From positions 20,925,582 through 20,989,581 of the forward strand of contig NC_088655.1 of NCBI RefSeq assembly GCF_964019385.1: a stretch of 64,000 nt of DNA, written 5' to 3'. Below are positions 3,193 through 62,082 of the stretch, in pieces. Origin of the DNA: Sycon ciliatum. Its lineage: Eukaryota > Porifera > Calcarea > Leucosolenida > Sycettidae. Under the pieces are notes generated by a model. That model had not been told where the DNA came from. It made no database searches and was given only the letters and a program-made list of their open reading frames with translations. The stretch's first letter is position 1. Each line of letters opens with the position of its first letter. Both the position numbers and the translations under genes were made by a program.

Positions 3193-4134
3193 ACCCGAAG
3201 AGAATTGGTAAGCACACATGCTCATTCCCTGGGCACTGCAAATTCACAACTAATTTCATTTTTATGGAAACGAGTTAAGAGTAACTCTCCACCACTGTAA
3301 CTAGATACTATATACAGTCAGAAAGCGGAACAAAGAATGTCGATTGTCACTGGACGATGACGAGACCAGTAGGCGATTTGACAAAGCGGTCTAACTACAA
3401 TTCGAAGCAGCAAAGCAGCACACCACCCAACTTGGGTGGGTCAACAATATCAAAGATAAGTTAAGAAGGAGGAAGCTTTGCGAGAACGAATTGTACAAGC
3501 TAAACTCCTACAGTACTCCTCATGCATTGTGATGGACTAGTTGACTACAAAACAAGTTGTTTCACACGACGTACGTTTCGCCGTATGGTTCGTGACGGCT
3601 CATCCCACTGGTCTCGTCATCGTCCAGTGACAATCGACATTCTTTGTTCCGTTGAGACTGTAGCTTGTGCTCGTTTTCGTTGCGCTTGCCTTCCCCTCTT
3701 TGGTCTTTCCATAACCTTGAACCTTCCAAGTTGGAAGGCTGTCGGTTAGCGCTACGGAGATGTGTTGAAGCTAGGTGTCAGGACGTCGAATGTCTAAGTA
3801 CTCTGTCAGTTTTGTGCCTAGTTGTTGCACTTTCTGACTGTATTTAGTATCTAGTTACAGTGGTGGAGAGTTACTCTTAACTCGTTTCCATAATTATGTC
3901 CTTTTCCTTTCTACTTTTATTATTGGCTCAATACCCGAGTTTCATTTCATTTTACAGAATCATTTTCAACGTTTCATATGCATCCTGATGATGGCAATTT
4001 GCCGAAAGGTTGAAAATCATTCTGTAAAATGAAATTAGTTGTGAATTTGCAGTGCCCAGGGAATGAGCATGTGTGCTCACCCATTCTCTTCGAGTTACTA
4101 GTATGAAGCTGCAGGATGCCTCACCGCTACTTCG
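3193..4134. mobile_element. Nested-palindrome (foldback) insertion with 11-bp target duplication
   Basis: TTTGTATAACA occurs on both sides (3182-3192 and 4135-4145). The uninterrupted array copy near 10775 has this sequence once. Inside, 3196-3258 is inverted at about 4029-4092, 3260-3324 is inverted at about 3830-3893, and 3326-3371 is inverted at 3609-3653. The whole insert can therefore fold on itself. No coding sequence is seen. A hammerhead-like core lies at about 3985-4011 (see findings). Confidence 0.7.
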
Positions 4135-6905: not shown

Positions 6906-7145
6906 ACCCAACCAACCAGCGGGTCACAAACCGCTCCTGCTCAGCGCAGGCCGACCCACTTGGTCATATACAGCTCCTGCCCTGGGTAGGCCGACCACAC
7001 GGTTCGTTAACGCGCAGTCAATTGAGGCCAGCTACTCTGCCCGACGTTCCCATTCTTCCAAACTCACTCTCGTGTCTTTTGGTGTGTCGCGTCCTGCACA
7101 CGTGTGTGTCTACTCTATACTCTAGCATGGTGAGTAGGATGTTAA
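6906..7145 (+). repeat. Second copy of the DIRS-associated 3' sequence
   Basis: This is nearly identical to 1850-2078, including CCGACCCACTTGGTCATATA and the TACTCTAGCATGG(T/G)GAGTAGGATG end. It stops at the TTAA into which the next element inserted. Confidence 0.6.
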
Positions 7146-8010
7146 AGGGGAAGTTAAGGCAAAAATTATAATTTCACCAGTTGTAGTCTTCGGGGTGCTG
7201 AGTCGAATGGTCGTGGTCCGAGGAAGCTGAGACGCTCCCTTCCTACTTGAATCCCAATCGAACTCGCTCACTTCCACCGAAACTGGGTGACTGCGCCCTA
7301 CTAGATGGGGATTTGTATGCAAAATGTCACTAAAAGCGCCATTTCGTTCTTTTAAAAGCACGGATGACCGCGATTGGCCCATATGTTGTAGTCTTTTGGA
7401 CGCTGAGTCGACTGGTTTTGGTCCGAAAAGGCTGCGATGCAGCGTTCCTCCTTTATTCCCAATCGAACATGGTTGAAGAAGCGGTCACGTGCTCCTGCGT
7501 ACACCAGTCACCTGGTCATCGTGCCTGCAGGGTACAACTTACTAGCCTGTTTGACCTTTTTTGGGTGCAGTCCTGTCACTCGAGTTGAACTCGAGTTGAA
7601 CCTTGGTGTGAAAGTTGTCACCTGCTGGCGTGGTGACCAGGTGATTTCGGCACCCAGGACCACGTGACCGCTTCTTCAACCATGTTCGATTGGGAATAAA
7701 GGAGGAACGCTGCATTGCAGCATTTTCGGACCAAAACCAGTCGACTCAGCGTCCAAAAGACTACAACATATGGGCCAATCGCGGTCATCCGTGCTTTAAC
7801 AAGAACGAAATGGCGCTTTTAGTGACATTTTGCATACAAATCCCCATCTAGTAGGGCGCAGTCACCCAGTTTCGGTGGAAGTGCGCGAGTTCGATTGGGA
7901 TTCAAGTAGGAAGGGAGCGTCTCAGCTTCCTCGGACCAAGACCATTCGACTCAGTACCCTGAAGACTACAACTGGTGAAATTTTAATTTTTGCCTTAACT
8001 TCCCCTTTAA
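7142..8010. mobile_element. piggyBac-like (TTAA) foldback MITE with long inverted repeats
   Basis: TTAA stands at both ends (7142-7145 and 8007-8010). Inverted repeats starting AGGGGAAGTTAAGGCAAAAA extend about 345 bp inward on each side (to about 7490 and from about 7660), leaving a spacer of about 170 bp. The paralogous site at 2070-2095 reads GATGTTAATGTTC with a single TTAA, an empty site. The TTAA target is the hallmark of piggyBac elements. No transposase is present. Confidence 0.85.
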
Positions 8011-43245: not shown

Positions 43246-43793
43246 ACCGACGCAATCCACGCAGTCAAGTAAAGCCAATTCAGTAATCGAACGTTTTCGT
43301 TCCCTTCTCATCATGGGTAAGTACCGGTACAGGGAATGATGGAAAATATCGAAATACAGAAAAAACATCATATCTGTACAACTCACAACTATCACTAACC
43401 GACAGATGATTCTTGATAGCCGTTTGCTGATTGTTGGAATGTCGCGTTCAGCTGAATCGCGTTCAGCTGAATCGCGTTCAGCTGAATCGCGTTCAGGTGA
43501 ATCACGTTCAGCTGAATCGCGTTCAGCTGAATCGCGTTCAGCTGAATGGCGTTCAGCTGAATCGCGTTCAGCTGAATCGCGTTCAGGTGAATTTAATTTT
43601 TTCCACATGTACATGTAAAGTGTGATGTTCTACTTCGAAGTAGATCTATGTATAATGCTTTTGCTCTAGCTCTCTAAGTTGCTGTATTTTGACATTTTTC
43701 CATTATTCCCTGCACTTACCCATGATGAGAAGGAAACGAAACGTTCGGTTACTGAAAGAATTGGCTTTACTTGACTGCGTGGATTGCGTCGGT
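43246..43793. mobile_element. Foldback element with minisatellite in the loop
   Basis: 43246-43359 (ACCGACGCAATCCACGCAGT..., CTCATCATGGGTAAGT...) is inverted at 43682-43793 with a few changes and small indels. The loop contains the 15-bp repeat. The end bordering sequences are A/G-rich, and no target duplication is obvious. Confidence 0.65.
43444..43593 (+). repeat. 15-bp minisatellite, ten units
   Basis: The unit is GCGTTCAGCTGAATC. Units 4 and 10 share the variant CAGGTG, unit 5 starts ACG, and unit 7 ends AATG. Two forward frames stay open through it because the unit has no stop and its length is a multiple of three. Confidence 0.95.
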
Positions 43794-45980: not shown

Positions 45981-46630
45981 TGTTATCTAAACCTTCCCAG
46001 GCACTCAGTCATGCACCCCGTGCACACCGTCACACAAAAGATCACAGCCTTTTCAGATAAGGAACAAATTATGCATGGTTGAAAGGAGAGAGAAAATGAG
46101 AGAGACGCGAGAGAGAACTGGCTGCGCCAAGAAGAGCGAATGCAAAACCGCTGTCCCTGGCAAAACGTGCGCGTACAAGTGCAGCACAAACGAGACCAGC
46201 GTACTACACGCAACAAATAAGGGTAGCGGGACGCAACCTAAAACGATACCAGTCTTCCCAGAAAGGTGCGCTGCTGCGCACAGCCCGCGTATCCATGGAA
46301 AACATGGTGCAAAACAAATGCAGAAATGCAGAAGCAAAATAAATAAATAAATCAGAAATTCGAACGACAAACAGTAGTGAGCAGGACGAAGACAGAAAGA
46401 TCAAAGTTGAGGAAAGAAAAGTGTTTGATCTGTCAGTGGGTGCTTGCACCCGATACGGGGTGACAGTAAACCCTGTCAGATAGTGACACATCGTAGAGTT
46501 ATTCTGCAGAGGGACTTCACTGAGCAAGAATATAACAAACCACGTAAGTAACTCCAGCAAATCGTGAATAATAATTGTAAATGCATACACAATGTTATCA
46601 TAAGTATTCGAACACCATAGTTCCCTTTCA
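45981..46630 (-). repeat. 3' LTR of the Ty3/Gypsy-like element
   Basis: 650 bp. Read on the - strand it starts TGAAAGGGAACTATGG and ends GATAACA (TG...CA). It matches 50977-51622 base for base as far as I can read, except for one extra AAAT in an AAAT run (46337-46352). The polypurine tract AGGTGGAGGGG lies just inside it at 46631-46641. Confidence 0.92.
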
Positions 46631-46695
46631 CCCCTCCACCTGATAACATTGGATGGGGCATACATGTAATGACATACAGCAGGGAAGACAGATGC

Positions 46696-47274
46696 CTAGC
46701 GATAGCGAGCAGGGGGCTGCAGAGAACCACGGGGACGTAATGAATGACCACCAACCAGATGATCAGATGGGGGGGAAATGTCCAAGCAAACCCAACCATC
46801 ATCATCACCATCATCACGAGGACCATCAACGCGAACATCGCCAACATCAGGCGGGGGCACTAGAGGAACACACGGCACATCAGGAACAACCAAACCAACA
46901 TCACGCTTCAAGAGCTCGACATTGACCACCTTTTCCTGACGACGACCTGACTCAGGATGCACACGGCAAATCACAACACTGGCAGGACCAATAACATGTT
47001 TAACTGACCAACCAGAATCGAACGGGGGCTGACGTTTCTGGCGACGATCAGGGTTACGCAATAGAACACGATCACCAACAACATACGGACAAGAAGGCGA
47101 CTCAACAACAGGCGCAGGGGCGTGCTCTGCAACAACCGCCGTCAAATAGTCGTGAACCCGAGCAGCCTTATCACACACACCATCAACCCAAAGAGAGGAC
47201 GAAAGAGTAGATGGTATACCGTCCACAAATAGAGCACGAGGCTCCCAGCCAAACATAGCACGCATGGGAGAAAT
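46696..47274 (-). CDS. Integrase C-terminal part of the Gypsy-like polyprotein (after the stop)
   Basis: The frame continues the main ORF directly after the TAG at 47275-47277 with ISPMRAMFGWEPRAL (the usual S-P-x-x-x-x-F-G-x-x-P-R motif at the end of the integrase core). It then reads YVVGDRVLLRNPDRRQK, a GPY/F-like KHVIGPASVVICRV segment, and an acidic tail with GDDDGWV and RPRGSLQPPARYR. It was one protein with the upstream frame. Readthrough or a recent nonsense mutation separates them. Confidence 0.85.
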   Translation of the reverse strand: MSPMRAMFGWEPRALFVDGIPSTLSSSLWVDGVCDKAARVHDYLTAVVAEHAPAPVVESPSCPYVVGDRVLLRNPDRRQKRQPPFDSGWSVKHVIGPASVVICRVHPESGRRQEKVVNVELLKRDVGLVVPDVPCVPLVPPPDVGDVRVDGPRDDGDDDGWVCLDISPPSDHLVGGHSLRPRGSLQPPARYR

Positions 47275-50200
47275 CTACAATTCACTATGCGGACGAGTAC
47301 GGTAGAAGAAGAGGAGAATCTCTAGCTCGGCTAGCCAATCGGCAGCAGTATCCAACACCTTGCGAATAAGAGTGAGAATAGTACGATTGAATCTCTCGGC
47401 GCCACCCTGTGACTGAGGGTGACGGACCGCACCAGTACGAACGCAAACACCAAACACATCCAACAAAGAAGACACAATAGCATTGCGGAACTCATGACCA
47501 TTGTCGCAACGCACCACACGCGGCGGACCAAACTTCAAACAGAGACGCAGAAATTCCTCTGCAACAGAGCGACCATCATGACGCCGCAAGGGTACCACCT
47601 CGACCCAACGGGAAAACATATCGACAACCACTAACACACAATGGTACTGACCGGTCTGGTTGACACCGAGCTCCAGTGTATCGATCTGGACAATGTCCCA
47701 CGGCTTGACAGGAACGTCATTCTGAACAGCAGGAGCTGGTGGACCACTGCGGGGATTGGCAGCCTGGCAGGCCTGACAATTACGCACATAGGCCTGGCAT
47801 AGCGAAGACATACCTGGAAAGAAACAAGACTGACACAGAGAACGCCACATAGTTTCCCAATTGCCATGACCTGTATTGGCATGAGCAGCAGTAATCAAAG
47901 CGGGAACGGTGGATTGCGGTGCAACAGGAACCAGTACCTCACCGTCGACGGGGTCACGCCAAGTGCGACACAATAGACCATCAATAACACACAACTGCTT
48001 ACGAAACTTGCAGAACGACGGATCAGAAACAGAGACGTCACGAGACAAATCGCGAATAACGCTCTGGATAGCATCATCAGTAGCTTGACCAGACTTCAAC
48101 ACGTCAAACTCCAATGGATGTGAAAGTGTAGAAGAGGGGGCAGAAGCAGCGACATCAGCAGAAGAACACAACTTCTTAGCATGAGCAACCCACGGCTGCG
48201 GAACACGAGTCAGTACATCAGCATGATTCTCAGAACTTGGCACCCATTCCACTGTGACCGAAATACCGGATGCCTCAATCAAATCTGTAAAGATCTGCAG
48301 ACGACGTTGAACCAAGACATGTTGCAAACCACTAACTCGCACCCGTTCAGTATTGCGCAACACAGCCTGGAGCCAACCAAAGACAGTCTTAGAGTCTGTC
48401 TTGAGCACAACAGAAGAGACATTCCAATCAATAGCCAGCTCGAGGCCTTTCAAGGCAGCATTCAACTCAGCAAGATTGATATGACGCCGGTCGTCCTTTT
48501 GCCGGAGCCAAGAACGATCTTCCAGGACAGAACCATCACACTCCAAAACAACACCAATAGCAACATCAGAGGCATCGCAATGAACAACAAAACCAGAACC
48601 AGTAGAGGAAGAATGCCACGTACCATGAGCAGGATCCTCTCGCACACAGCGATCGGACAGTTCCTGGAGGAACCGCTGTACTTCAGGAGAGACAGGCTTA
48701 TCCCATGCGGACTGGCCAGACACGAGGCGCTTCAAGAAGCTGCAGGCCGGACGAAGCCAACAGCAGACGGGATAATGGCTGAGCGCCCGACCGCACCAAC
48801 TGAAGAGTTCCCGCTTCGTAGTCGTGGGTGGAACAGACAGATCAACACCCTGACGACGGGTCCACAAGACTTCACCCGTGGCGCTAGAATGGAGCTGCAA
48901 GCCCAGAACACGGGCATCAGGCAATGGCTCTGCAGGCTTGGTCTCAAAACCAAACGCAGCAAGCTGAGAGGACACTTCGGCAGCACGGTCACGCGGCACG
49001 TGGATATCATCCACGTAGTTGTCGGCATCGACCACGTCACGCAAGACCCACTTCACTATGATGTCTAGGAACTTGGGGGCAATGGATAGACCGAACGCCA
49101 TCCGTTCCATCACGTAACGCTGGCCGTCGACGAGGACAACCTGGTATGGCAGCAATGATGGTGCGACATGGACCTGTAAGTAGGCCTTGCGAATGTCCAG
49201 GAGAACGTACTCAGATGCAGGTCCAGCCTGCCGCCACTTCCGTAATTTCTCACCACAGGCAGGTGCTTCTGAGCCAGGATGTGAGATGATGCAGGCATTC
49301 AGCCTGCGATAGTCCAAGCAAGGGCGAACTGGAGTGGACGACTTGTGCTCCTGGACTTGAGCAAGGAAAGGCAGCACACACTTGGGCTGGCCATGTTGGT
49401 CCACATCATACGGCTGCAGCCAGCCGTTGTCAATCCAAGTCCGGACCTCCTGCTGGAACAGGGTCTCCTGCTCATCAGTCAGTTTCGAGCGAGAGTACTC
49501 GCCTATGCCACAGCCAACGGGCGACTGAGGCTCGCTCCCACTTTGCCATTTCCAGGTCAGCTCCCATCTCTTACGAGCAGCGTCCCAGCACACTTGGCCA
49601 TCATCCGTTGCTAGGGTGACATTACCCTCGTCATCTCTGGTAACTGTCACATGCCCATATGGATGGTCATGGGTCGACCTCTCGGGTGGAGCTGCAACTG
49701 GGTCAATGGTCTGCGGTTTCGTGCCAAACGTCACACCAGTGAGCACGCCATGATCATACTGGACGTCAACACCGCCCAGTGCGGAAATCAGTTCCAGGCC
49801 AATGACCAGATCTGAGCCAACGGCATGCAAATCAGGGACGACGAGAAACCGACTCGTAGTGCATGGCAGATAAACAGCATCATCGAGTCTGGACACCTGT
49901 AGCGAAACTTCACCCTGGATAGGCACACTGTTGCCGTCAATAGCCGAAATTGCCAGTTCGGACGGACGAACATCCACATTCAGGGCCTCCACCAGCTGCC
50001 GGCTCACCAGGTTGCGGCTGGCGCCGGTGTCCACGACTGCCTTAGGGCGAGCAGACTGTTCTCCCACAGCAATATCCACATGGAGACGCGGCAAAGAGCA
50101 TGCATTCGCATCAGGCACACAGAGGCATGGATCAGGCGTGCGCTCAGGTGCTGCGGCCTGCACTTCAGACTCCTTTGCACGCCAGGACGTGTCAGACTGC

Positions 50201-50954
50201 TGGCGGGACTGGCGCCACTTCTTGTACTCCGGACAGTTTGGCTTCACGTGACCTGTCTCATCGCAGAAGAAACAGGTCAAAGCTGGCCGCCCACCACCAT
50301 TGCCATGACTTCTGCTGCTGCCAGAACTCCGGTTTGCGGGACAATTGCGGGAAATATGTCCAGCCTGATTACAACGAAAACATAAAACATTCCGGCTGCG
50401 TTGGGAGCTAGCAGCCGCAGCGCCAACCGGCTCTTTCGGACGAGATGTACCCTCCGCGCTCCGCAAGCGACGGACATACTCAATACAGTCAGATACAGAC
50501 TCCATGGAACAATTTATTCGCAACTGGCGTTGAAACTCCCAGGGCAAACCAGCAACGAACTGCTCGATGACTACACGGTCTTTGCCGTCACTCGCGACTT
50601 TCTGGCCAGCACCAACTAGCAGTTTCTTCAAGTCTGCAGCGTACCCCTCGACGCTCTCATCGGTCCGCAACGTGCGGGCACGAAATTTCTGGAAAGACGC
50701 AGCAGGCGTCGTACTGAATGCACTTTTCAAAGTTGCTTTCACCGCATCCGGGTCAGCTTTGTCGGTTGACGAAAGCTCGTCCCACACCAGGTAGGCCTCG
50801 TTCTCCAGAAACAACGGTAAATTGTTCATCTTGTCTGTGCTCGAACTCCACTGCTGGAGGTTCGCTAATACTAAAAACTTAGACCAGAAGGCCTCGAAAT
50901 CATCGCCACTACCACGATAGGGTTTCACAAACGCCTCGATACGCCTGGACATTC
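47275..50954 (-). CDS. Gag-Pol polyprotein of the Ty3/Gypsy-like element
   Basis: Start chosen at the ATG at 50952-50954 (MSRRIEAFVKPYRGSGDD), just after the primer-binding site; a GTG two codons upstream is ignored. Order: a gag capsid-like region (residues about 1-165), two CCHC zinc knuckles (CFRCNQAGHISRNC and CFFCDETGHVKPNC, about 190-240), aspartic protease with VDTGAS (about 307), and reverse transcriptase with RPCLDYRRLN and the catalytic YVDD (about 648). RNase H follows with HCDASDVAIG and LAELNAALKG, then an integrase with an HHCC-like N-terminus (GHGNWETMW...CQAC), D of QIDTLE, D of CDNGHEF, and GGAERFNRT. Protease-RT-RNase H-integrase order fits Ty3/Gypsy; BEL/Pao shares this order and is the alternative. 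A single TAG ends the frame inside the integrase. Confidence 0.9.
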
Positions 50955-50976
50955 TCACAGGGTTTCGGTACCACTT

Positions 50977-51622
50977 TGTTATCTAAACCTTCCCAGGCAC
51001 TCAGTCATGCACCCCGTGCACACCGTCACACAAAAGATCACAGCCTTTTCAGATAAGGAACAAATTATGCATGGTTGAAAGGAGAGAGAAAATGAGAGAG
51101 ACGCGAGAGAGAACTGGCTGCGCCAAGAAGAGCGAATGCAAAACCGCTGTCCCTGGCAAAACGTGCGCGTACAAGTGCAGCACAAACGAGACCAGCGTAC
51201 TACACGCAACAAATAAGGGTAGCGGGACGCAACCTAAAACGATACCAGTCTTCCCAGAAAGGTGCGCTGCTGCGCACAGCCCGCGTATCCATGGAAAACA
51301 TGGTGCAAAACAAATGCAGAAATGCAGAAGCAAAATAAATAAATCAGAAATTCGAACGACAAACAGTAGTGAGCAGGACGAAGACAGAAAGATCAAAGTT
51401 GAGGAAAGAAAAGTGTTTGATCTGTCAGTGGGTGCTTGCACCCGATACGGGGTGACAGTAAACCCTGTCAGATAGTGACACATCGTAGAGTTATTCTGCA
51501 GAGGGACTTCACTGAGCAAGAATATAACAAACCACGTAAGTAACTCCAGCAAATCGTGAATAATAATTGTAAATGCATACACAATGTTATCATAAGTATT
51601 CGAACACCATAGTTCCCTTTCA
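50977..51622 (-). repeat. 5' LTR of the Ty3/Gypsy-like element
   Basis: 646 bp, TG...CA ends, the partner of 45981-46630. As the element is on the - strand, this LTR carries the promoter. Confidence 0.92.
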
Positions 51623-53500
51623 AGGCAGTGTTCCAGTAATGGGGAACAGAACTTCGAGTGGCGAGTGAGGTATACACACACACACGTGCGTGCGCGGGCA
51701 CACACTAAAGTATTCAGAAATAGAATCGACATTGTAGTACTCATTGGTTGGGGAATGAAAGGAAAATAAAACATTGCTGTAGGTTATTGTTGTAAGGACA
51801 CTGGGAGAACAACAGAAAGGTAAGCAACTTGCTTTGAAGCAAAGAAAGTTATTATTCCACGGATCTCAGAAGGAAGGAACGTTCCAGAATGCTGCACTGG
51901 CAACAGGCGGCCTGCATGTGCGCGGCCCCTGCAGTCGGTCCAGCTGCCGGCCTTGCAGTGCTGAAAAGAATGTGCAGTACAGCATGTCACATAGTATCGC
52001 AGCCTGGACAAATAGGCGCTGGGAAGGCCTAGTTATGTGCTCACCTACACCACGATGCACCAATCTTCTGAGCTACTTTGGCAACAACTTTGTCCACTTG
52101 AGACTCCCATGGGCTGAGCCAGTTGTTAAGGGCTGCACCAAGGTGGACGGCAATGACCGCTGATGGCAAAGCAATCCATGACACACAGTCACTAGGGCAT
52201 CGTCAACATGGCGCTGAGGCTGGATCGATAAAATCAACCTTTAGGCTGCCGCGGGGTTGACAAGGAGGCCGCTGTCTCGAAGCTTCTTGCAAAAGACATC
52301 ATTCTATGCTATTGTCATGTTCTTACTCCTTAGAACTGCTGAGACCGTTTCATAGTGGGAACACTTCATCTGTGCCTGTTTAGCCATAGCTGTCTTACAT
52401 GTGCTGTAATGCCGCCTATATTGGCTCGGCGTGCACTTTTGAGCTCGTCCACTACGTTCCGTTTCGTACACTTCTGTAGTAACGCAATAAAGATTCTCAT
52501 TGACACTCCTTTACACGGCCAGCGTATGTGGATATTAGTCTGTAGGTGGCTGCAATTTGGGTTTTTGTCTTTCGCCGTTCACTATTTTACCAAAATATTC
52601 CAATATTCTGCATTTGTCGGATGTGTGCACTGGTGTCCAGACGAGTTGCTTGGCATAACTCGCAGACAGGAATGCATACACGACCAGGGTGTAGCTGAGT
52701 GGCATTATTGCACCGTCCTGATGTGTTCATTTTGAGTGCTACATGTTTCCAGCTGTCCTCCATAGACATGTAAATAGCGAGAAAAACAGAGGTTAGAAAA
52801 TTGGTCGGTGTGGTGTTATTTGGTCTTGGACACCGGCGAGAGACCACATACTAAAAGACTAAGGCTTGTTCTTCTGGATGTTGTAGTGGGTGTTACTACG
52901 CGTGCCTGGAACACTTGACGGCACTAACCTAAAGTCCTGCGTAAAGAAAAATTCAAATTTCGACAGTCGGAGAAGACGTGATGCTGCATGGGACAGAAGC
53001 ACCCCGCGAGAAAACGTTCGAAACTGAGGATAGAAGTTTGCCTTATCCGGCGATGGACGGCGTGTCAGGTCTGAACTCGAACGAAAAAGGGCCTTGTAAG
53101 GCCCACCTTGCAATGACTAGAAACTAACAATTCTCAAGAAATAGCTCAAAAAGTTCAAAGTCCACTGACTCTGGAAAATAAAAAACACGGATAGAGTGCG
53201 ATATTTTGAATCTGGCGCACGGACTGTTATGTCCACTTGCAAGTACAAAAAGGCACAATTTTCCGAACTTTTGGGCTCCATAAGTACAACAAAGTGAATA
53301 TGTATCCCCGCGTGCCAAAGCATAATAATTACGGGGATTTTGCGAGCATAATGCGAGAATCCATGAAAGCATAATTCCATGATTTCGCGAGCATAATCCG
53401 CCGGAGCCTACTACATACTACTGTAGAACTGTGGTAGAATCATGATGACTGTAGTTATGCTCCTACCTCCGAAAGGATGCCAAATTATGCTCCAAATTTT
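51623..53500. other. No firm gene; possible short - strand exon
   Basis: On the - strand, after TTTGCCATCAG (about 52164), a frame reads VIAVHLGAALNNWLSPWESQ and VDKVVAKVAQKIGASWC and reaches GTGAGC at about 52045, so it could be one exon of an unknown gene. No family is recognised. GGATTATGC-type MITE ends lie near 53380-53410. The rest shows nothing that I can name. Confidence 0.25.
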
Positions 53501-54411: not shown

Positions 54412-56769
54412 ATGCTTGGGCTCCAACAACTAGTGAGTTTCCCAACATACACTTCATCAGCGGGTGCCAACTCATGTCTTGACTTGTTGGTAACCAACAA
54501 ACCCCAACATGTCCTCTCAGTCGACCACGCAGCTCCTCTTGGCACATCTGATCATCTGCAGGTTGTTTGTACGCTCAACTATGCATCGTGCTCGACACCA
54601 CAAGCGACTGCTAAATCGTCCCTCCATCCCCAGGCTCAGTACAGGTATAAACAAGTGCCTACCCATGTCTGGCAGGTTGTGAATGAAGACTTGTCTAGGT
54701 TGGACTGGTCATTACTTCATCGGCATTCTGATGTTGATGATGCCATTGTCCTGTTTGATGCTTTACTACAGTCAGCATTCCATCGTCATCTGTTGCCTTA
54801 CAAAGTTATTCCGCGGACAGGAGACTACATTAGGCCTCATCCTACTATGCGGGATGCATCCCGACCCTGGATCACTCCGGACCTCAAGTGTGCTGTGAAA
54901 CTGAAGCGAGATTTGTATAGCATTTATAGGAAGTATCCAACCAGTGAAAACTTCATTGCCTTTAAGCGCAAGCGTAACGAAGTGAAATGTTTGTCACGTA
55001 CCCTCCATCGTCAGTATGTACGGTCGGTTCATGCCACCCTGTCTTCCCATGATCGCCCTAGTCTCCATCAATTTCTCCGCCATCTCCGTAAGAACTGTAG
55101 TCGGGAGCCGATCCGATCAATGACAGCTTCAGACGGCACGGTAGCAACAGATCCCGCAGATATAGCAGACATATTGAACACGCAGTTTACGTCGTTTGGA
55201 CTTCCTGACGACCCTACGTGGCCTATACCACCACTCACCCCTTCACCCCCAATACCTGCGTCCCTCCTATCATTGTCGACTGGTACAGCCCAAGTGAGGA
55301 AATATCTCCGTTATCTGAAAACTGGCAAGTCCCCTGGTCAAGACGGAATTACCAACGAAGTTTGGAGAGCTCTTGCTCCGTCTGTTGCCTATCCTGTGTC
55401 AATTATCTTGAATATGTCATTTCGTGAAGGGAAATTCCCAGCCATGTGGAAAACTGCGGTAGTCGTGGCCACCTACAAAAATAGAGGACCACGCACCACC
55501 CCCAGCAACTATCGCCCTATCTCATTGCTCTCTACTTTATCAAAAGTGTGCGAACGTGTTGTATATGACATCATTTATGATCATGTTCGCATTTCACTTT
55601 CGCCAGCACAGTCGGGCTTTTGTCGGGGTGACTCCACCAGGTACCAGGTTACCCGCCTCGTGCAAGACATCCACACCGCCCGGAACGCCCATAACCATGT
55701 TGGTTTAGTTTTCTTCGATCTCGCAAAGGCCTTCGACACTGTTTGGCACAGGGGTCTCTTAGCTAAGCTGCGAACAGTATATCGCATTGATGGCAAGGCT
55801 ATCGGCTGGCTCTCATCGTATCTCTCTAACCGACATCAGCTTGTACACCTCTCAACTGTGTTATCGGAGCCTTTACCCGTTACTTCTGGAGTCCCCCAGG
55901 GTTCAATACTTGGGCCACTGCTATTTCTCCTGTATATTAATGACCTCCCCGATACTGCCCCTGGTGTCAGCCTTTTCGCTGATGACACAGCTCTGCTTTG
56001 CTCCAATGCTTGCCCTATACGCCTGCACAAAGCCATGCAAGATAGCATTGGGAAAGTTATAACCTGGATGCATGATTGGAAGTTGCAGCCAAACGTTGAT
56101 AAAACGGCAGCTATGTACATTTCCCCCTCTCCCCCTTCCCTGCCACTTTGTTTTCCTTCTTCAAGTGTTGCTATTCGCATTGTTGAAGAGCATAAGCATC
56201 TTGGCGTTATTATTGACTCTAAATTGTCGTGGTCACCCCATGTGCAGTATGTCTGCAAGCGCACAAGCTCCATCCTTGGGGCTCTTCAAGCCCACTGTAG
56301 ACATCTTCCTCTTTCTTGCAAACGCTTGTTTTATCGTTGCTATATATTGCCCTTACTTGACTACTGTGATACTGCTTGGTGTGGCATAACTACTACTGTA
56401 TTGAACAAGCTAGAAACCCATAACCGCATGCTCCTTAAAATCCTATTTAGCAAAGACCGTCGCTTTCCCTCCGCTAGTCTTTACGAAATTGCCAAGATCA
56501 GTCCCCTTTCCACTCGACATAAGTACCACCTCTGTGTTCTCATACATAAAATATTACTAAATAAAATACCCTTGCATATGCAGGCTTATAATTGGTTCTC
56601 CGAAACACGGAACACCCGGAACTCACTCAGTCTCCCACGCGCTGCCTCCACCCTATTCACTAGATCCCCGATCTTTGCTGGCTATGTGTTTTGGGCAACA
56701 TTACCAACGCAGGCCAAGACCAGCACGTCGATGGATAATTTTGTTGCTAAAATCTCTGCTCAATTATAG
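54412..56769 (+). CDS. CR1/Jockey-group retrotransposon ORF2, 5'-truncated
   Basis: 785 open codons, but the start is not natural. Residues 1-55 are the end of an endonuclease/exonuclease/phosphatase domain (SFPTYTSSAGANSCLDLLVT and GTSDHLQV, with the D and H of the active site). Reverse transcriptase follows: SPGQDGITNEVW (about 310), NYRPISLLSTLSKVCERV, SGFCRGDSTR, FFDLAKAFDTVWHRGL, SGVPQGSILGPLLFLLYIND, the catalytic FADD (about 522), HLGVIID, then a C-terminal region with LDYCDTAWCG. All motifs are intact and no stop interrupts it, so the copy is young but truncated at the (CAAA)n tract. It cannot move without an intact 5' end. Confidence 0.9.
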   Translation: MLGLQQLVSFPTYTSSAGANSCLDLLVTNKPQHVLSVDHAAPLGTSDHLQVVCTLNYASCSTPQATAKSSLHPQAQYRYKQVPTHVWQVVNEDLSRLDWSLLHRHSDVDDAIVLFDALLQSAFHRHLLPYKVIPRTGDYIRPHPTMRDASRPWITPDLKCAVKLKRDLYSIYRKYPTSENFIAFKRKRNEVKCLSRTLHRQYVRSVHATLSSHDRPSLHQFLRHLRKNCSREPIRSMTASDGTVATDPADIADILNTQFTSFGLPDDPTWPIPPLTPSPPIPASLLSLSTGTAQVRKYLRYLKTGKSPGQDGITNEVWRALAPSVAYPVSIILNMSFREGKFPAMWKTAVVVATYKNRGPRTTPSNYRPISLLSTLSKVCERVVYDIIYDHVRISLSPAQSGFCRGDSTRYQVTRLVQDIHTARNAHNHVGLVFFDLAKAFDTVWHRGLLAKLRTVYRIDGKAIGWLSSYLSNRHQLVHLSTVLSEPLPVTSGVPQGSILGPLLFLLYINDLPDTAPGVSLFADDTALLCSNACPIRLHKAMQDSIGKVITWMHDWKLQPNVDKTAAMYISPSPPSLPLCFPSSSVAIRIVEEHKHLGVIIDSKLSWSPHVQYVCKRTSSILGALQAHCRHLPLSCKRLFYRCYILPLLDYCDTAWCGITTTVLNKLETHNRMLLKILFSKDRRFPSASLYEIAKISPLSTRHKYHLCVLIHKILLNKIPLHMQAYNWFSETRNTRNSLSLPRAASTLFTRSPIFAGYVFWATLPTQAKTSTSMDNFVAKISAQL

Positions 56770-57891: not shown

Positions 57892-58266
57892 CTAGCCAGG
57901 AAGAGTGTTGACGAAAATCTGCATCCCACCACGGAGACGAAGTACCAAGTGAATAGTGGACTCCTGCTGAACGTTGCAGTCACTCAGGGTTCGGCCGTCT
58001 GCCAACTGCGTGCCGGCGAAAATCAAACGCTGCTGGTCTTGGGGAATACCCTCCTTGTCTTGGTCAGCAGCCTGCATGTCGTCGTCCTCATCAGCTTCGC
58101 CATCACCACCGGTAGTATACATGTAGGTAGCGGGTCGCTTGGAATCGCCATCGGAGTCTCCAGTGAGTGCCATGCGGAGGGAAGGGTGATCCACGCTAGC
58201 ACCCTGACTGTGCTGCAAGCTAATAAGCAGGGCCAGGCCCAGGAAGGCAAGAAACATGATTCTCAT
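57892..58266 (-). CDS. Secreted-protein / circularly permuted ubiquitin fusion in the LTR element
   Basis: Start chosen at the ATG at 58264-58266, which opens a signal peptide ([20 protein letters not shown], cleavage expected after QG). An acidic stretch follows ([17 protein letters not shown]). At AADQ the frame enters ubiquitin at residue 32 ([16 protein letters not shown]), runs to the C-terminal LRLRGG, then restarts [10 protein letters not shown] and stops at TAG in place of Lys11. Relative to the near-invariant ubiquitin sequence, K48 is T, K63 is Q, K6 is N, Y59 is C, E51 is A, P38 is Q and T9 is P. It lies in the sense of the LTR element. A secreted ubiquitin is unexpected. The gene may be a captured host precursor gene into which a ubiquitin unit was inserted. 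Confidence 0.75.
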
Positions 58267-58359
58267 CTTGATTCGTCGCACGAAGCTGCGGGTTGAGCCA
58301 TGGGGGTCTGGGGTCGAATCACGTTGTTTTATTTTACAAAAACACACCGCTGCCACCAA

Positions 58360-59644: not shown

Positions 59645-59993
59645 TAGTATCTATATGAGAATGTGTTCTGTCTCCATGGTCACCGGTGTTCTTTTCATAA
59701 ATGTAGCCACTTTTCCTTGTTAGACATTATGTGGAAGGCCCATTCTTGCATATTCCAACAGCAACCGAGGGAGCTAGCTCTCTTGGGTATGCGGACTGGG
59801 TCCGATCCTAAAAAGCTGTTTTTATAAACTGTTTTTATTGGATAGGATATGATTATAAGAAAGGGTTTGCTCCCCACACCGGAGCTCGCGGTATTCCGCC
59901 GACTTTACTTGACACTTGACTGACTCACGACTGCCATCCAGAGCACACGAGAAGTCCATCGAACCTTTGACTCGGCAAACCTGCAAGAAAGCA

Positions 59994-60057
59994 CCACTCC
60001 CTGCTCAATACACAGTGTTTCGGGGAATTCACCCCTCATCAGTTGAGCTTGAGTAGG
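59994..60057 (-). ncRNA. Type I hammerhead ribozyme, copy 1
   Basis: On the - strand: stem I strand GCTCAA, core CTGATGA, stem II GGGG-(TGAATT)-CCCC, core GAAA, short stem III ACA-(CTG)-TGT, cleavage nucleotide A, stem I strand TTGAGC. An outer helix (CC-T-ACTC with GAGTGG) is separated from stem I by an AA/AGG internal loop. All core bases are present, so this copy should be competent. Confidence 0.85.
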
Positions 60058-60472
60058 CTGAGGAAGATTGTGCCTGAAGAGCACCACTTATATAGTGCTC
60101 TCCAGGCACAAACATCACCAGGGATACAAACTTACAGAGACGCTCCGTTTCCAGCGCGACAAACACCTGGTGAACACCAGATAGCAGCGTGAGTCAGTGT
60201 CGCTCCTGGACGGTGAGACAGACGTCGAGGACCCTCGGTCATTCGCAACGCTGTCACCTCCCAAACCAACTAGTCGCAAGCCCGCGCATGGCACAACAGT
60301 ACGAAGTAGTGGTTGCGATTTCGGCGATGATTTGTAAGAAAGGGTTTGCTCCCCACACCGGAGCTCGGGCTATTCCGCCGACTTTACTTGACACTTGACT
60401 GACTCACGACTGCCATCCAGAGCACACGAGAAGTCCAGCGAACCTTCGACTCGGCAAACCTGCAAGAAAGCA

Positions 60473-60536
60473 CCACTCCCTGCTCAATACACAGTGTTTC
60501 GGGGAATTCACCCCTTATCAGTTGAGCTTGAGTAGG
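60473..60536 (-). ncRNA. Hammerhead ribozyme, copy 2, core mutated
   Basis: Same secondary structure as copy 1, but the core reads CTGATAA: the + strand C is T at 60516, changing G8 to A. G8 acts in catalysis in known hammerheads, so this copy is predicted inactive. Confidence 0.8.
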
Positions 60537-60795
60537 CTGAGGAAGATTGTGCCTGAAGAGCACCACTTATATAGTGCTCTCCAGGCACAAACATCACCAG
60601 GGATACAAACTTACAGAGACGCTCCGTTTCCAGCGCGACAAACACCTCGTGAACACCAGATAGCAGCGTGAGTCAGTGTCGCTCCTGGACGGTGAGAAAC
60701 ACGTCGGCGGAATAGCGCGAGCTCCGGTGTGGGGAGCAAACCCTTTCTTACAAATCAGAGGAGCGTCTCTGTAAGTTTGTATCCCTGGTGATGTT

Positions 60796-60835
60796 TGTGC
60801 CTGGAGAGCACTATATAAGTGGTGTTCTTCAGGCA
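60796..60835 (+). promoter_or_regulatory. TATA box in a hairpin upstream of ribozyme copy 3
   Basis: GTGCCTGGAGAGCAC, then TATATAAGTG, then GTGTTCTTCAGGCAC: two arms of 15 bases with two mismatches enclosing a TATA box. The ribozyme starts about 15 bp downstream. The same arrangement occurs in all units, on the - strand at about 60070-60110 and 60549-60590. Confidence 0.55.
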
Positions 60836-60848
60836 CAATCTTCCTCAG

Positions 60849-60912
60849 CCTACTCAAGCTCAACTGATGAGGGGTGAATTCCCCGAAACACTGTGTATTG
60901 AGCAGGGAGTGG
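60849..60912 (+). ncRNA. Type I hammerhead ribozyme, copy 3
   Basis: Identical in core and stems to copy 1. Predicted cleavage lies between A60897 and T60898, just before the second strand of stem I (TTGAGC). Confidence 0.87.
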
Positions 60913-61274
60913 TGCTTTCTTGCAGGTTTGCCGAGTCGAAGGTTCGATGGACTTCTCGTGTGCTCTGGATGGCAGTCGTGAGTCAGTCAAGTGTCAAGTA
61001 AAGTCGGCGGAATAGCGGGAGCTCCGGTGTGGGGAGCAAACCCTTTCTTACAAATCATCGCCGAAGTCGCAACCACTACTTCGTACTGTTGTGCCATGCG
61101 CGGGCTTGCGACTAGTTGGTTTGGGAGGTGACAGGGTTGCGAATGACCAAGGGTCCTCGACGTCTGTCTCACCGTCCAGGAGCGACACTGACTCACGCTG
61201 CTATCTGGTGTTCACCAGGTGTTTGTCGCGCTGGAAACGGAGCGTCTCTGTAAGTTTGTATCCCTGGTGATGTT

Positions 61275-61314
61275 TGTGCCTGGAGAGCACTATATAAGTG
61301 GTGCTCTTCAGGCA
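61275..61314 (+). promoter_or_regulatory. TATA box in a hairpin upstream of ribozyme copy 4
   Basis: GTGCCTGGAGAGCAC, TATATAAGTG, GTGCTCTTCAGGCAC; the arms pair at 14 of 15 positions. Confidence 0.55.
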
Positions 61315-61327
61315 CAATCTTCCTCAG

Positions 61328-61391
61328 CCTACTCAAGCTCAACTGATGAGGGGTGAATTCCCCGAAACACTGTGTATTGAGCAGGGAGTGG
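61328..61391 (+). ncRNA. Type I hammerhead ribozyme, copy 4
   Basis: Exactly 479 bp downstream of copy 3, with all core bases kept. Predicted cleavage lies between A61376 and T61377. RNA running from copy 3 to copy 4 would be released as a 479-nt monomer with ends suitable for circularisation. Confidence 0.87.
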
Positions 61392-61635
61392 TGCTTTCTT
61401 GCAGGTTTGCCGAGTCGAAGGTTCGCTGGACTTCTCGTGTGCTCTGGATGGCAGTCGTGAGTCAGTCAAGTGTCAAGTAAGTCGGCGGAATAGCGCGAGC
61501 TCCGGTGTGGGGAGCAAACCTTTTCTTACAAATCATCGCCGAAGTCGCAACCACTACTTCGATATGATTATGTTGAATAAACGAGGTTTGTGTCAATTGG
61601 AGATTGACTTGGAGTTTTTACGAGTTGATTCTAAG

Positions 61636-62082
61636 GGCCTGGTCAGACTGCCGCAAATTTTGTTTGCCTGACGAAAAAATAACAGCGTCCAGAATTAGAA
61701 TCGCGATCACACTACACATGTGGGGAGAATGAAAATTCAAACTTCATTTCGAGCGTCAAGTGGTCATCTCCACGAATGACGTCAAATTCCTTCACCCTGT
61801 GGATCGCCAACACCTTCAGTGCAATCCTTGCAACCATCCTTATGGGTTTCGGTGTTGTCCGTGGCCAATTAGCTCCTCGATATCGAGATGAAAAAATCAG
61901 TGATTATCAGCGTCAATGGCGTATCAGCGTCAAATCCTGTTTGGAGCGGAAAAGCGTGGTCCGTTCTTACTTTTTTTGGAGCGTCAACTCTCGCTTTTGC
62001 CGCTCTGGCGGCAAGTTACTATGGAGATTCGGATTATAATCCTAGGATTATTTTGATTTTGCCGCAGTCTGACCAGGCCCTT
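61636..62082. mobile_element. MITE with GGGCCTGGTCAGACTGC ends
   Basis: Inverted ends AGGGCCTGGTCAGACTGC at 61636 and 62082 (inverted), bordered by TA on both sides, are followed by GCAAAAT-like sequence. A frame at 61776-62039 starts MTSNSFTLWIANTFSAILAT and has a hydrophobic segment. A second hydrophobic segment in another frame (TLAFAALAASYYG) suggests a broken small membrane protein, which is not recognised. Confidence 0.6.

Follow-up and report, generated by a model that had tools for sequence, protein, structure and literature searches.

The 64 000-nt stretch of the Sycon ciliatum genome analysed here (NC_088655.1, positions 20,925,582 to 20,989,581 of the forward strand; hereafter, the window) contains, at 59857–61561, a head-to-head array of hammerhead-bearing repeats that is probably the product of a non-autonomous retroelement. 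In our estimate (probability of roughly 0.65), the underlying unit is a non-coding, 479-nt sequence that carries a minimal type I hammerhead resembling those of Penelope-like elements (PLEs) and was mobilized in trans by a PLE enzyme. The positions and orientation of the repeats, a tail on one arm, a stretch of microhomology and a target-site duplication (TSD) can all be read directly from the sequence. A first-pass annotation of this DNA linked PLEs with repeats of a type I hammerhead that a reverse transcriptase (RT) had inserted as a single unit, a link that is supported by the 34-nt tail, the short TSD and the head-to-head arrangement of the halves. The same annotation attributed the palindrome to a single reverse transcript that switched strands, which now appears less likely than two separate primings, one on each target strand, combined with a template jump at the centre.

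The element is a single insertion located between two copies of the direct repeat GATATGATTAT (59846–59856 and 61561–61571), so that the single integration event with an 11-bp target duplication originally proposed is borne out, with the qualification that the TSD is 10–11 bp long because the G at 61561 also agrees with the unit. Identical 11-mers were found in 4 of 200 000 random pairs drawn from the window; hence, an exact repeat that adjoins both ends of an element defined by homology is not due to chance. By inspection, 9 of the 11 TSD positions are A or T. The insertion contains repeats spaced at 479 bp and an inverted repeat of 721 nt (99% complementary). When the unit is compared with the window using blastn, only matches of up to 13 bases are detected outside the element, and the joined flanks produce no match spanning the junction elsewhere, only flank pieces of 27–39 nt. 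Exact searches with a 26-base ribozyme pattern (0 matches in viral_contigs and 0 in genome_contigs) and a 40-base hairpin pattern (0 matches in viral_contigs) say little, these not being collections of animal genomes.

To number the unit, u1 is defined as the first base 3' of the predicted cleavage site, and the 479-nt unit at 60898–61376 (plus strand), which lies between two predicted cleavage sites with both cores intact, is taken as the reference. The left half (59857–60706, minus strand) consists of u261–479 (60706–60488), u1–479 (60487–60009) and u1–152 (60008–59857), and the right half (60760–61561, plus strand) of u342–479 (60760–60897), u1–479 (60898–61376) and u1–186 (61377–61561), with one base deleted at about u103 in this last, distal segment. 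The halves are connected, on the plus strand, by a central fragment, u106–160 (60703–60757), whose first four bases, GTCG (60703–60706), also form part of the left half at its inner end, and by two extra bases, GA (60758–60759), that lie between u160 and u342 and are not accounted for by the unit. Each half includes one complete ribozyme-to-ribozyme unit along with partial units. The earlier description, two 479-bp tandem units facing two more, is therefore correct with regard to the inverted halves and the spacing but not the number of full units per half, which is one accompanied by fragments. The sense strand is directed outward in both halves, and their ragged ends join at the centre. The GC content of the unit is 53.4% compared with 46.6% for the window.

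The two arms are not equivalent. Positions u153–186 at the outer end are present in the right arm only, and u261–341 at the inner end in the left arm only. At least one private difference is found in six of the seven unit segments, and the only variant common to both halves, at u50, is crossed, with C in the left-mid and right-distal segments and A in the left-distal and right-mid segments. Given the unmatched outer and inner ends and the crossed variant, neither arm is a plain copy of the other. A monomeric circle as the sole template was considered and rejected as a misfit with the crossed u50 variant, unless the change arose twice; judging from this one site, a multi-unit RNA or a dimeric circle fits better as the template.

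The points where the complementary DNAs (cDNAs) would have started are clustered. The three start points, u152/153 at the left end, u160 in the central fragment and u186 at the right end, all fall within 34 nt; a circle of 479 nt would have three randomly placed points so close together with a probability of 0.015. The opposite cDNA ends are scattered (u261, u106 and u342). The segment between the outermost starts, u153–186, is the 34-nt tail (61528–61561, plus strand) that is found at the outer end of the right arm only and contains a hairpin, CGAAGT-CGCAACCACT-ACTTCG (u165–186), the loop of which, CGCAACCACT, is 80% A+C and the last base of which is u186. For PAc, a PLE protein, reverse transcription is described as beginning internally, at two neighbouring sites in an AC-rich stem loop, and the sequence between the sites makes up a 30–40-bp tail (PMC11167929). 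The target end at the left junction matches the antisense of the unit over 6 nt, a match equalled by 177 of 50 000 random target ends at the same tolerance; at the right junction, the match between target and RNA is 2 nt. The cDNA 3' ends, GTCG and CGAC, are complementary to each other.

From these features, we infer the identity of the enzyme, the order of events, the form of the RNA and any ribozyme activity. Under the proposed scheme, an RNA of more than one unit would be made, and a PLE endonuclease would cut both strands of the AT-rich target with an 11-nt stagger, leaving 3' overhangs, each of which would prime antisense cDNA synthesis on the sense RNA within the short initiation zone u152–186. 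The left cDNA would begin at u152/153, perhaps aided by the 6 nt of target/RNA pairing, and the right one at u186, at the end of the hairpin with the A/C-rich loop. The right cDNA would extend back to u342, gain two bases, jump to RNA at u160 and copy it to u106; the central fragment and the two extra bases fit such a template jump landing again in the start zone. Annealing of the cDNA 3' ends via GTCG/CGAC, followed by fill-in, would then yield the head-to-head palindrome and the TSD. Dual priming explains, within one scheme, why the sense strands point outward, why there is a TSD, why the outer ends do not match and why the inner ends share microhomology.

Several observations weigh against this interpretation. 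Its scope is one insertion, for which no further copy, autonomous partner or empty allele came to light, and the probabilities for the start cluster and for the junction match were both framed after the sequence had been seen. Only the start at u186 touches the hairpin u165–186; those at u152/153 and u160 lie 5' of it. The A/C-richness of the hairpin is not distinctive either: 20-nt windows starting at u416 and u425–428 are equally rich (14/20), and the hairpin as a whole is 64% A+C. The cut motif of PAc, 5'-ATT-3', is found, by inspection, near the top-strand cut only, and the start sites described for PAc are inside an open reading frame (ORF) (PMC11167929), whereas no ORF crosses the start zone of the element, the frame stopping before it, at u102. 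Part of what is observed in the middle of the palindrome could also result from a later deletion there, although the outer ends could not. Finally, the layout of PLE insertions varies, and some copies with inverted pseudo-long terminal repeats (pLTRs) in Adineta vaga are described as having no TSD (PMC3846280).

The hammerhead assignment was examined with a structured motif composed of stem I (5 bp), CTGANGA, stem II (4 bp), GAAA, a short stem III, TH and the other strand of stem I. In the window, this motif matches only copy 1 (60004–60047, minus strand), copy 3 (60859–60902, plus strand) and copy 4 (61338–61381, plus strand) of the element, all with intact cores, and no match was obtained in any of 300 windows simulated with an order-1 Markov model. 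The scan was composed after the motif had already been seen, and the three sites, being copies of one family, amount to one independent occurrence. Comparison of the copies reveals, in copy 2 (60483–60526, minus strand), a substitution of A for G8 in the core (CTGATAA). Hence three of the four cores are intact, which falls short of the complete hammerhead initially assigned to every unit. In the PAc hammerhead, a G8C change abolished cleavage (PMC11167929), and by this analogy the predicted ribozyme of copy 2 is probably inactive. Rfam hammerhead models produced no match at the gathering score in the whole window or at E values up to 10 in 59700–61700 and 60840–60925, a negative outcome of the model search suggested in the first-pass annotation, so that the ribozyme call depends on motif geometry and simulation. 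When the stems were dropped from the pattern, the outcome was not significant, with 12 match rows in the window and at least as many in 6 of 100 shuffles; these rows correspond to the three intact sites of the element and to 3985–4036. The latter lies within a nearly perfect hairpin, 3942–4039, whose loop region holds CTGATGATGGCAATTTGCCGAAAG, a hammerhead-like core that was not accepted by the scan requiring stems.

The distribution of intact cores limits what self-cleavage could release. On the plus strand, the predicted ribozymes 3 and 4 could, in principle, release 60898–61376 as a 479-nt monomer, and only the right half could do so because one of the two cores of the left half is mutated. 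The suggestion that cleavage at successive ribozymes frees 479-nt monomers is thus tenable in principle for the right half but not for the left one.

Helix III of the hammerhead is weak. It reads ACA-CUG-UGU if A15.1-U16.1 is counted as the first pair; beyond that pair, two pairs close a CUG triloop. The three-pair stem III of the earlier description holds under this count, but helix III is missing from the predicted folds. In the fold of an 84-nt segment, stem I has four of its five pairs and stem II is complete, but the core bases pair with those of helix III, which is absent; an alternative with an open core is only 0.3 kcal/mol worse and still lacks helix III. When the 479-nt unit is folded as a circle, the two strands of stem I pair out of register. 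This circular unit is 4.1 standard deviations more stable than 100 shuffles, with a paired fraction of 67.6% that is the same as for the shuffles (66.7%, standard deviation 2.0). Duplexfold predicts a duplex in which two CACUGUG strands enclose a U-U mismatch (−4.1 kcal/mol), which would suit a ribozyme dimer. PLE hammerheads are described as minimal, lacking helix III or loop–loop contacts and possibly active as dimers (PMC7761336), and the retrozymes of amphibians are also reported to have a weak helix III and to cleave better as dimers (PMC7229834), so that this feature cannot separate PLE hammerheads from those of retrozymes. Just upstream of the hammerhead lies a 27-nt imperfect inverted repeat (60785–60848, plus strand), a strong hairpin with TATATAA (60812, u394) in the loop, which is found at the three other copies as well; from its sequence, it is a candidate promoter, RNA hairpin or both.

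The coding content of the element is in line with the original statement that no protein is encoded: no ORF of at least 150 amino acids (aa) overlaps 59857–61561, and the longest ATG-started sense frame in the reference unit, the only one translated, is 44 aa long. This short frame was considered as a coding remnant and judged to be due to chance; it begins at an ATG inside the hammerhead core and ends at u102, before the start zone. An autonomous PLE would have one ORF encoding RT and GIY-YIG domains, which the element lacks, and it is thus not an autonomous PLE.

The first-pass annotation left a choice between a retrozyme and the terminal repeats of a deleted PLE. The element is not a typical retrozyme (479 nt, 53% GC), although its tandem, non-coding layout is retrozyme-like; the second option, under which an autonomous PLE lost its ORF and the units are its pLTRs, is retained as a rival but appears unlikely. 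The ATG in the hammerhead and the upstream TATA sequence recall the pLTRs of PLEs (PMC3846280, PMC11167929), although any such core with T at its variable position contains an ATG. This origin is at variance with the exact 479-nt periodicity at which unit succeeds unit, and with the absence of an ORF running through the initiation zone of the reference unit, in contrast to the pLTRs of tailed PLEs. Furthermore, both halves lack the ORF, so that its loss would have to be in the template rather than subsequent to insertion.

A similarly improbable alternative is an ordinary metazoan retrozyme that was inserted by the enzyme of a long interspersed nuclear element (LINE) through two-sided (L1-type twin) priming. 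Metazoan retrozymes are thought to be mobilized by either LINEs or PLEs (PMC7229834), Nematostella repeats have 15-bp TSDs that have been termed LINE-like (PMC4918200), and the window itself includes a LINE, at 54412–56769, whose open frame is 785 aa long. LINE priming is, however, at odds with the ends of the element, neither of which bears poly(A) or a simple 3' repeat.

Under the self-priming hypothesis, put forward in 2013 for head-to-head PLE structures with palindromic junctions (PMC3846280), the antisense strand would fold back on itself and be copied into a hairpin that is then inserted; the central 4-nt GTCG could serve as the contact for the fold-back. This route predicts mirrored arms, whereas the element has outer ends at u152 and u186, inner ends at u261 on one side and u106–160 plus u342 on the other, and, at one site, a u50 variant that is crossed rather than mirrored. 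Incomplete copying followed by a central deletion might explain some of these mismatches but not the crossed variant. Because only one arm has the 34-nt tail and the arms are not simple copies of each other, we favour two primings and regard self-priming as quite unlikely. Library preparation is known to yield palindromic joins as artefacts, and an assembly or chimeric-read origin of the palindrome would be of this kind; it is very hard to reconcile with flanks that are not mirrored, a TSD that adjoins both ends, arms with different ends and private differences in six of the seven segments. A Foldback or Mutator-like DNA transposon would account for the long inverted repeats and for the 11-bp TSD, a length compatible with the TSD range of Mutator-like elements, but it is scarcely credible because one terminus begins at u152 of the unit and the other at u186, so that the ends are not matching inverted repeats.

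The remainder of the window is rich in other repeats and mobile elements. A long terminal repeat (LTR) retrotransposon occupies 46204–51774 (minus strand) and has a 1227-aa open frame with zinc knuckle, protease, RT, RNase H-like and integrase domains; the open frames that flank it have a long peptide stretch in common, as if they were within two LTRs. Its protein (47275–50958) has 15 matches among the 7992 candidates scored, the best of which is near-identical, and the best named relative, from Sycon ciliatum, is 51% identical over the whole query. The LINE-like 785-aa open frame at 54412–56769 (plus strand) has an RT domain and is a possible alternative source of trans-acting machinery; its protein has matches with up to 97% identity, and the named ones, at about 30–32%, include lancelets, bivalves and symbiont bins (among the best 120 of 2816). 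One of its named matches is a eukprot record with an scpid prefix, which we take to denote Sycon. A second large inverted repeat, at 7142–8010, consists of 399-nt arms (94% complementary) with 71 nt between them. Between about 2000 and 34000, many dispersed repeat families with about 60–97% identity (as seen in a listing of 20 of the 55 families) give the appearance of a cluster in which genes or elements have been duplicated. About 10 copies of a 15-bp tandem repeat are located at 43442–43592, the minus strand reading in frame as a SAERD-type peptide, and an open frame at 57892–58359 (minus strand) contains a partial ubiquitin domain that extends to LRLRGG; the MQIFV that comes next resembles the beginning of another ubiquitin.

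PLEs are named, on circumstantial grounds, as a strong candidate for the source of the enzyme that moves the hammerhead repeats of animals (PMC7229834), and the present element shows a PLE-like signature of start sites and tail on a non-coding hammerhead unit, a combination for which our searches of openly licensed PMC papers, judged by titles and the openings of abstracts, brought up no report. The element also bears on the origin of head-to-head PLE structures because self-priming would produce mirrored arms, whereas under dual priming each arm may end at one start site or the other; the lack of matching ends observed here fits the latter. The chemistry for dual priming is supplied by PAc, which, as a purified protein, cuts and extends both target strands in vitro (PMC11167929). 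By extension, PLE integration may normally be two-ended, with the staggered cut leaving two 3' overhangs that each prime an antisense cDNA and with microhomology joining the cDNA 3' ends. Head-to-head structures would then directly record target-primed reverse transcription on both sides, and the same route would move the retrozyme-like units of metazoans; this generalization is tentative, and we would sooner bet against it than for it.

Among known PLEs, where head-to-head is reported to be the most frequent inverted layout (PMC3846280), a close counterpart is Pen2a_Av, an endonuclease-containing Penelope of A. vaga. Both have repeats inverted head-to-head, with a TATA box in the repeat, a short TSD (8–10 bp in Pen2a_Av and 10–11 bp here) and a tail on one arm (31 bp and 34 nt, respectively), but Pen2a_Av has an ORF between its pLTRs, whereas the reference unit of the element is non-coding (PMC3846280). 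The PAc system (Poseidon, Anolis carolinensis) shares the hammerhead upstream of adjacent start sites, the A/C-rich stem loop and the AT-rich target; it differs in the distance of the start sites from the ribozyme cut, about 85–92 nt (computed from the figures of PMC11167929) compared with 152–186 nt in the element, and in that PAc does not require target homology, which is present at the left junction here (PMC11167929). Altogether, this one insertion displays the direct and inverted repeats, the head-to-head layout and the short TSD of PLE insertions and, at 34 nt on the right arm, the optional one-end tail of 30–40 bp that is tied to two adjacent RT start sites in PLEs; the minimal type I hammerhead is represented by the core and stems I and II, with a weak helix III and no match to Rfam models.

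Metazoan non-LTR retrozymes are described as tandem type I hammerhead repeats of 150–450 bp, with RNAs of about 170–400 nt, low GC content and TSDs longer than 4 bp (PMC7229834). Canonical hammerheads with contacts between loops 1 and 2, and expression as circular RNA, also characterize this family. The element resembles them in its tandem, non-coding units with a type I hammerhead (one core of the four being mutated) and no ORF, but departs from their size of about 170–400 nt and GC content below 50%, with a unit of 479 nt and 53.4% GC, and is further set apart by the inverted layout and the one-arm tail (PMC7229834). Given the tandem, non-coding layout combined with this unit length and composition, the element is best characterized as non-autonomous, retrozyme-like in its working and PLE-like in its insertion, and it is filed in neither the PLE nor the metazoan retrozyme family as these are defined.
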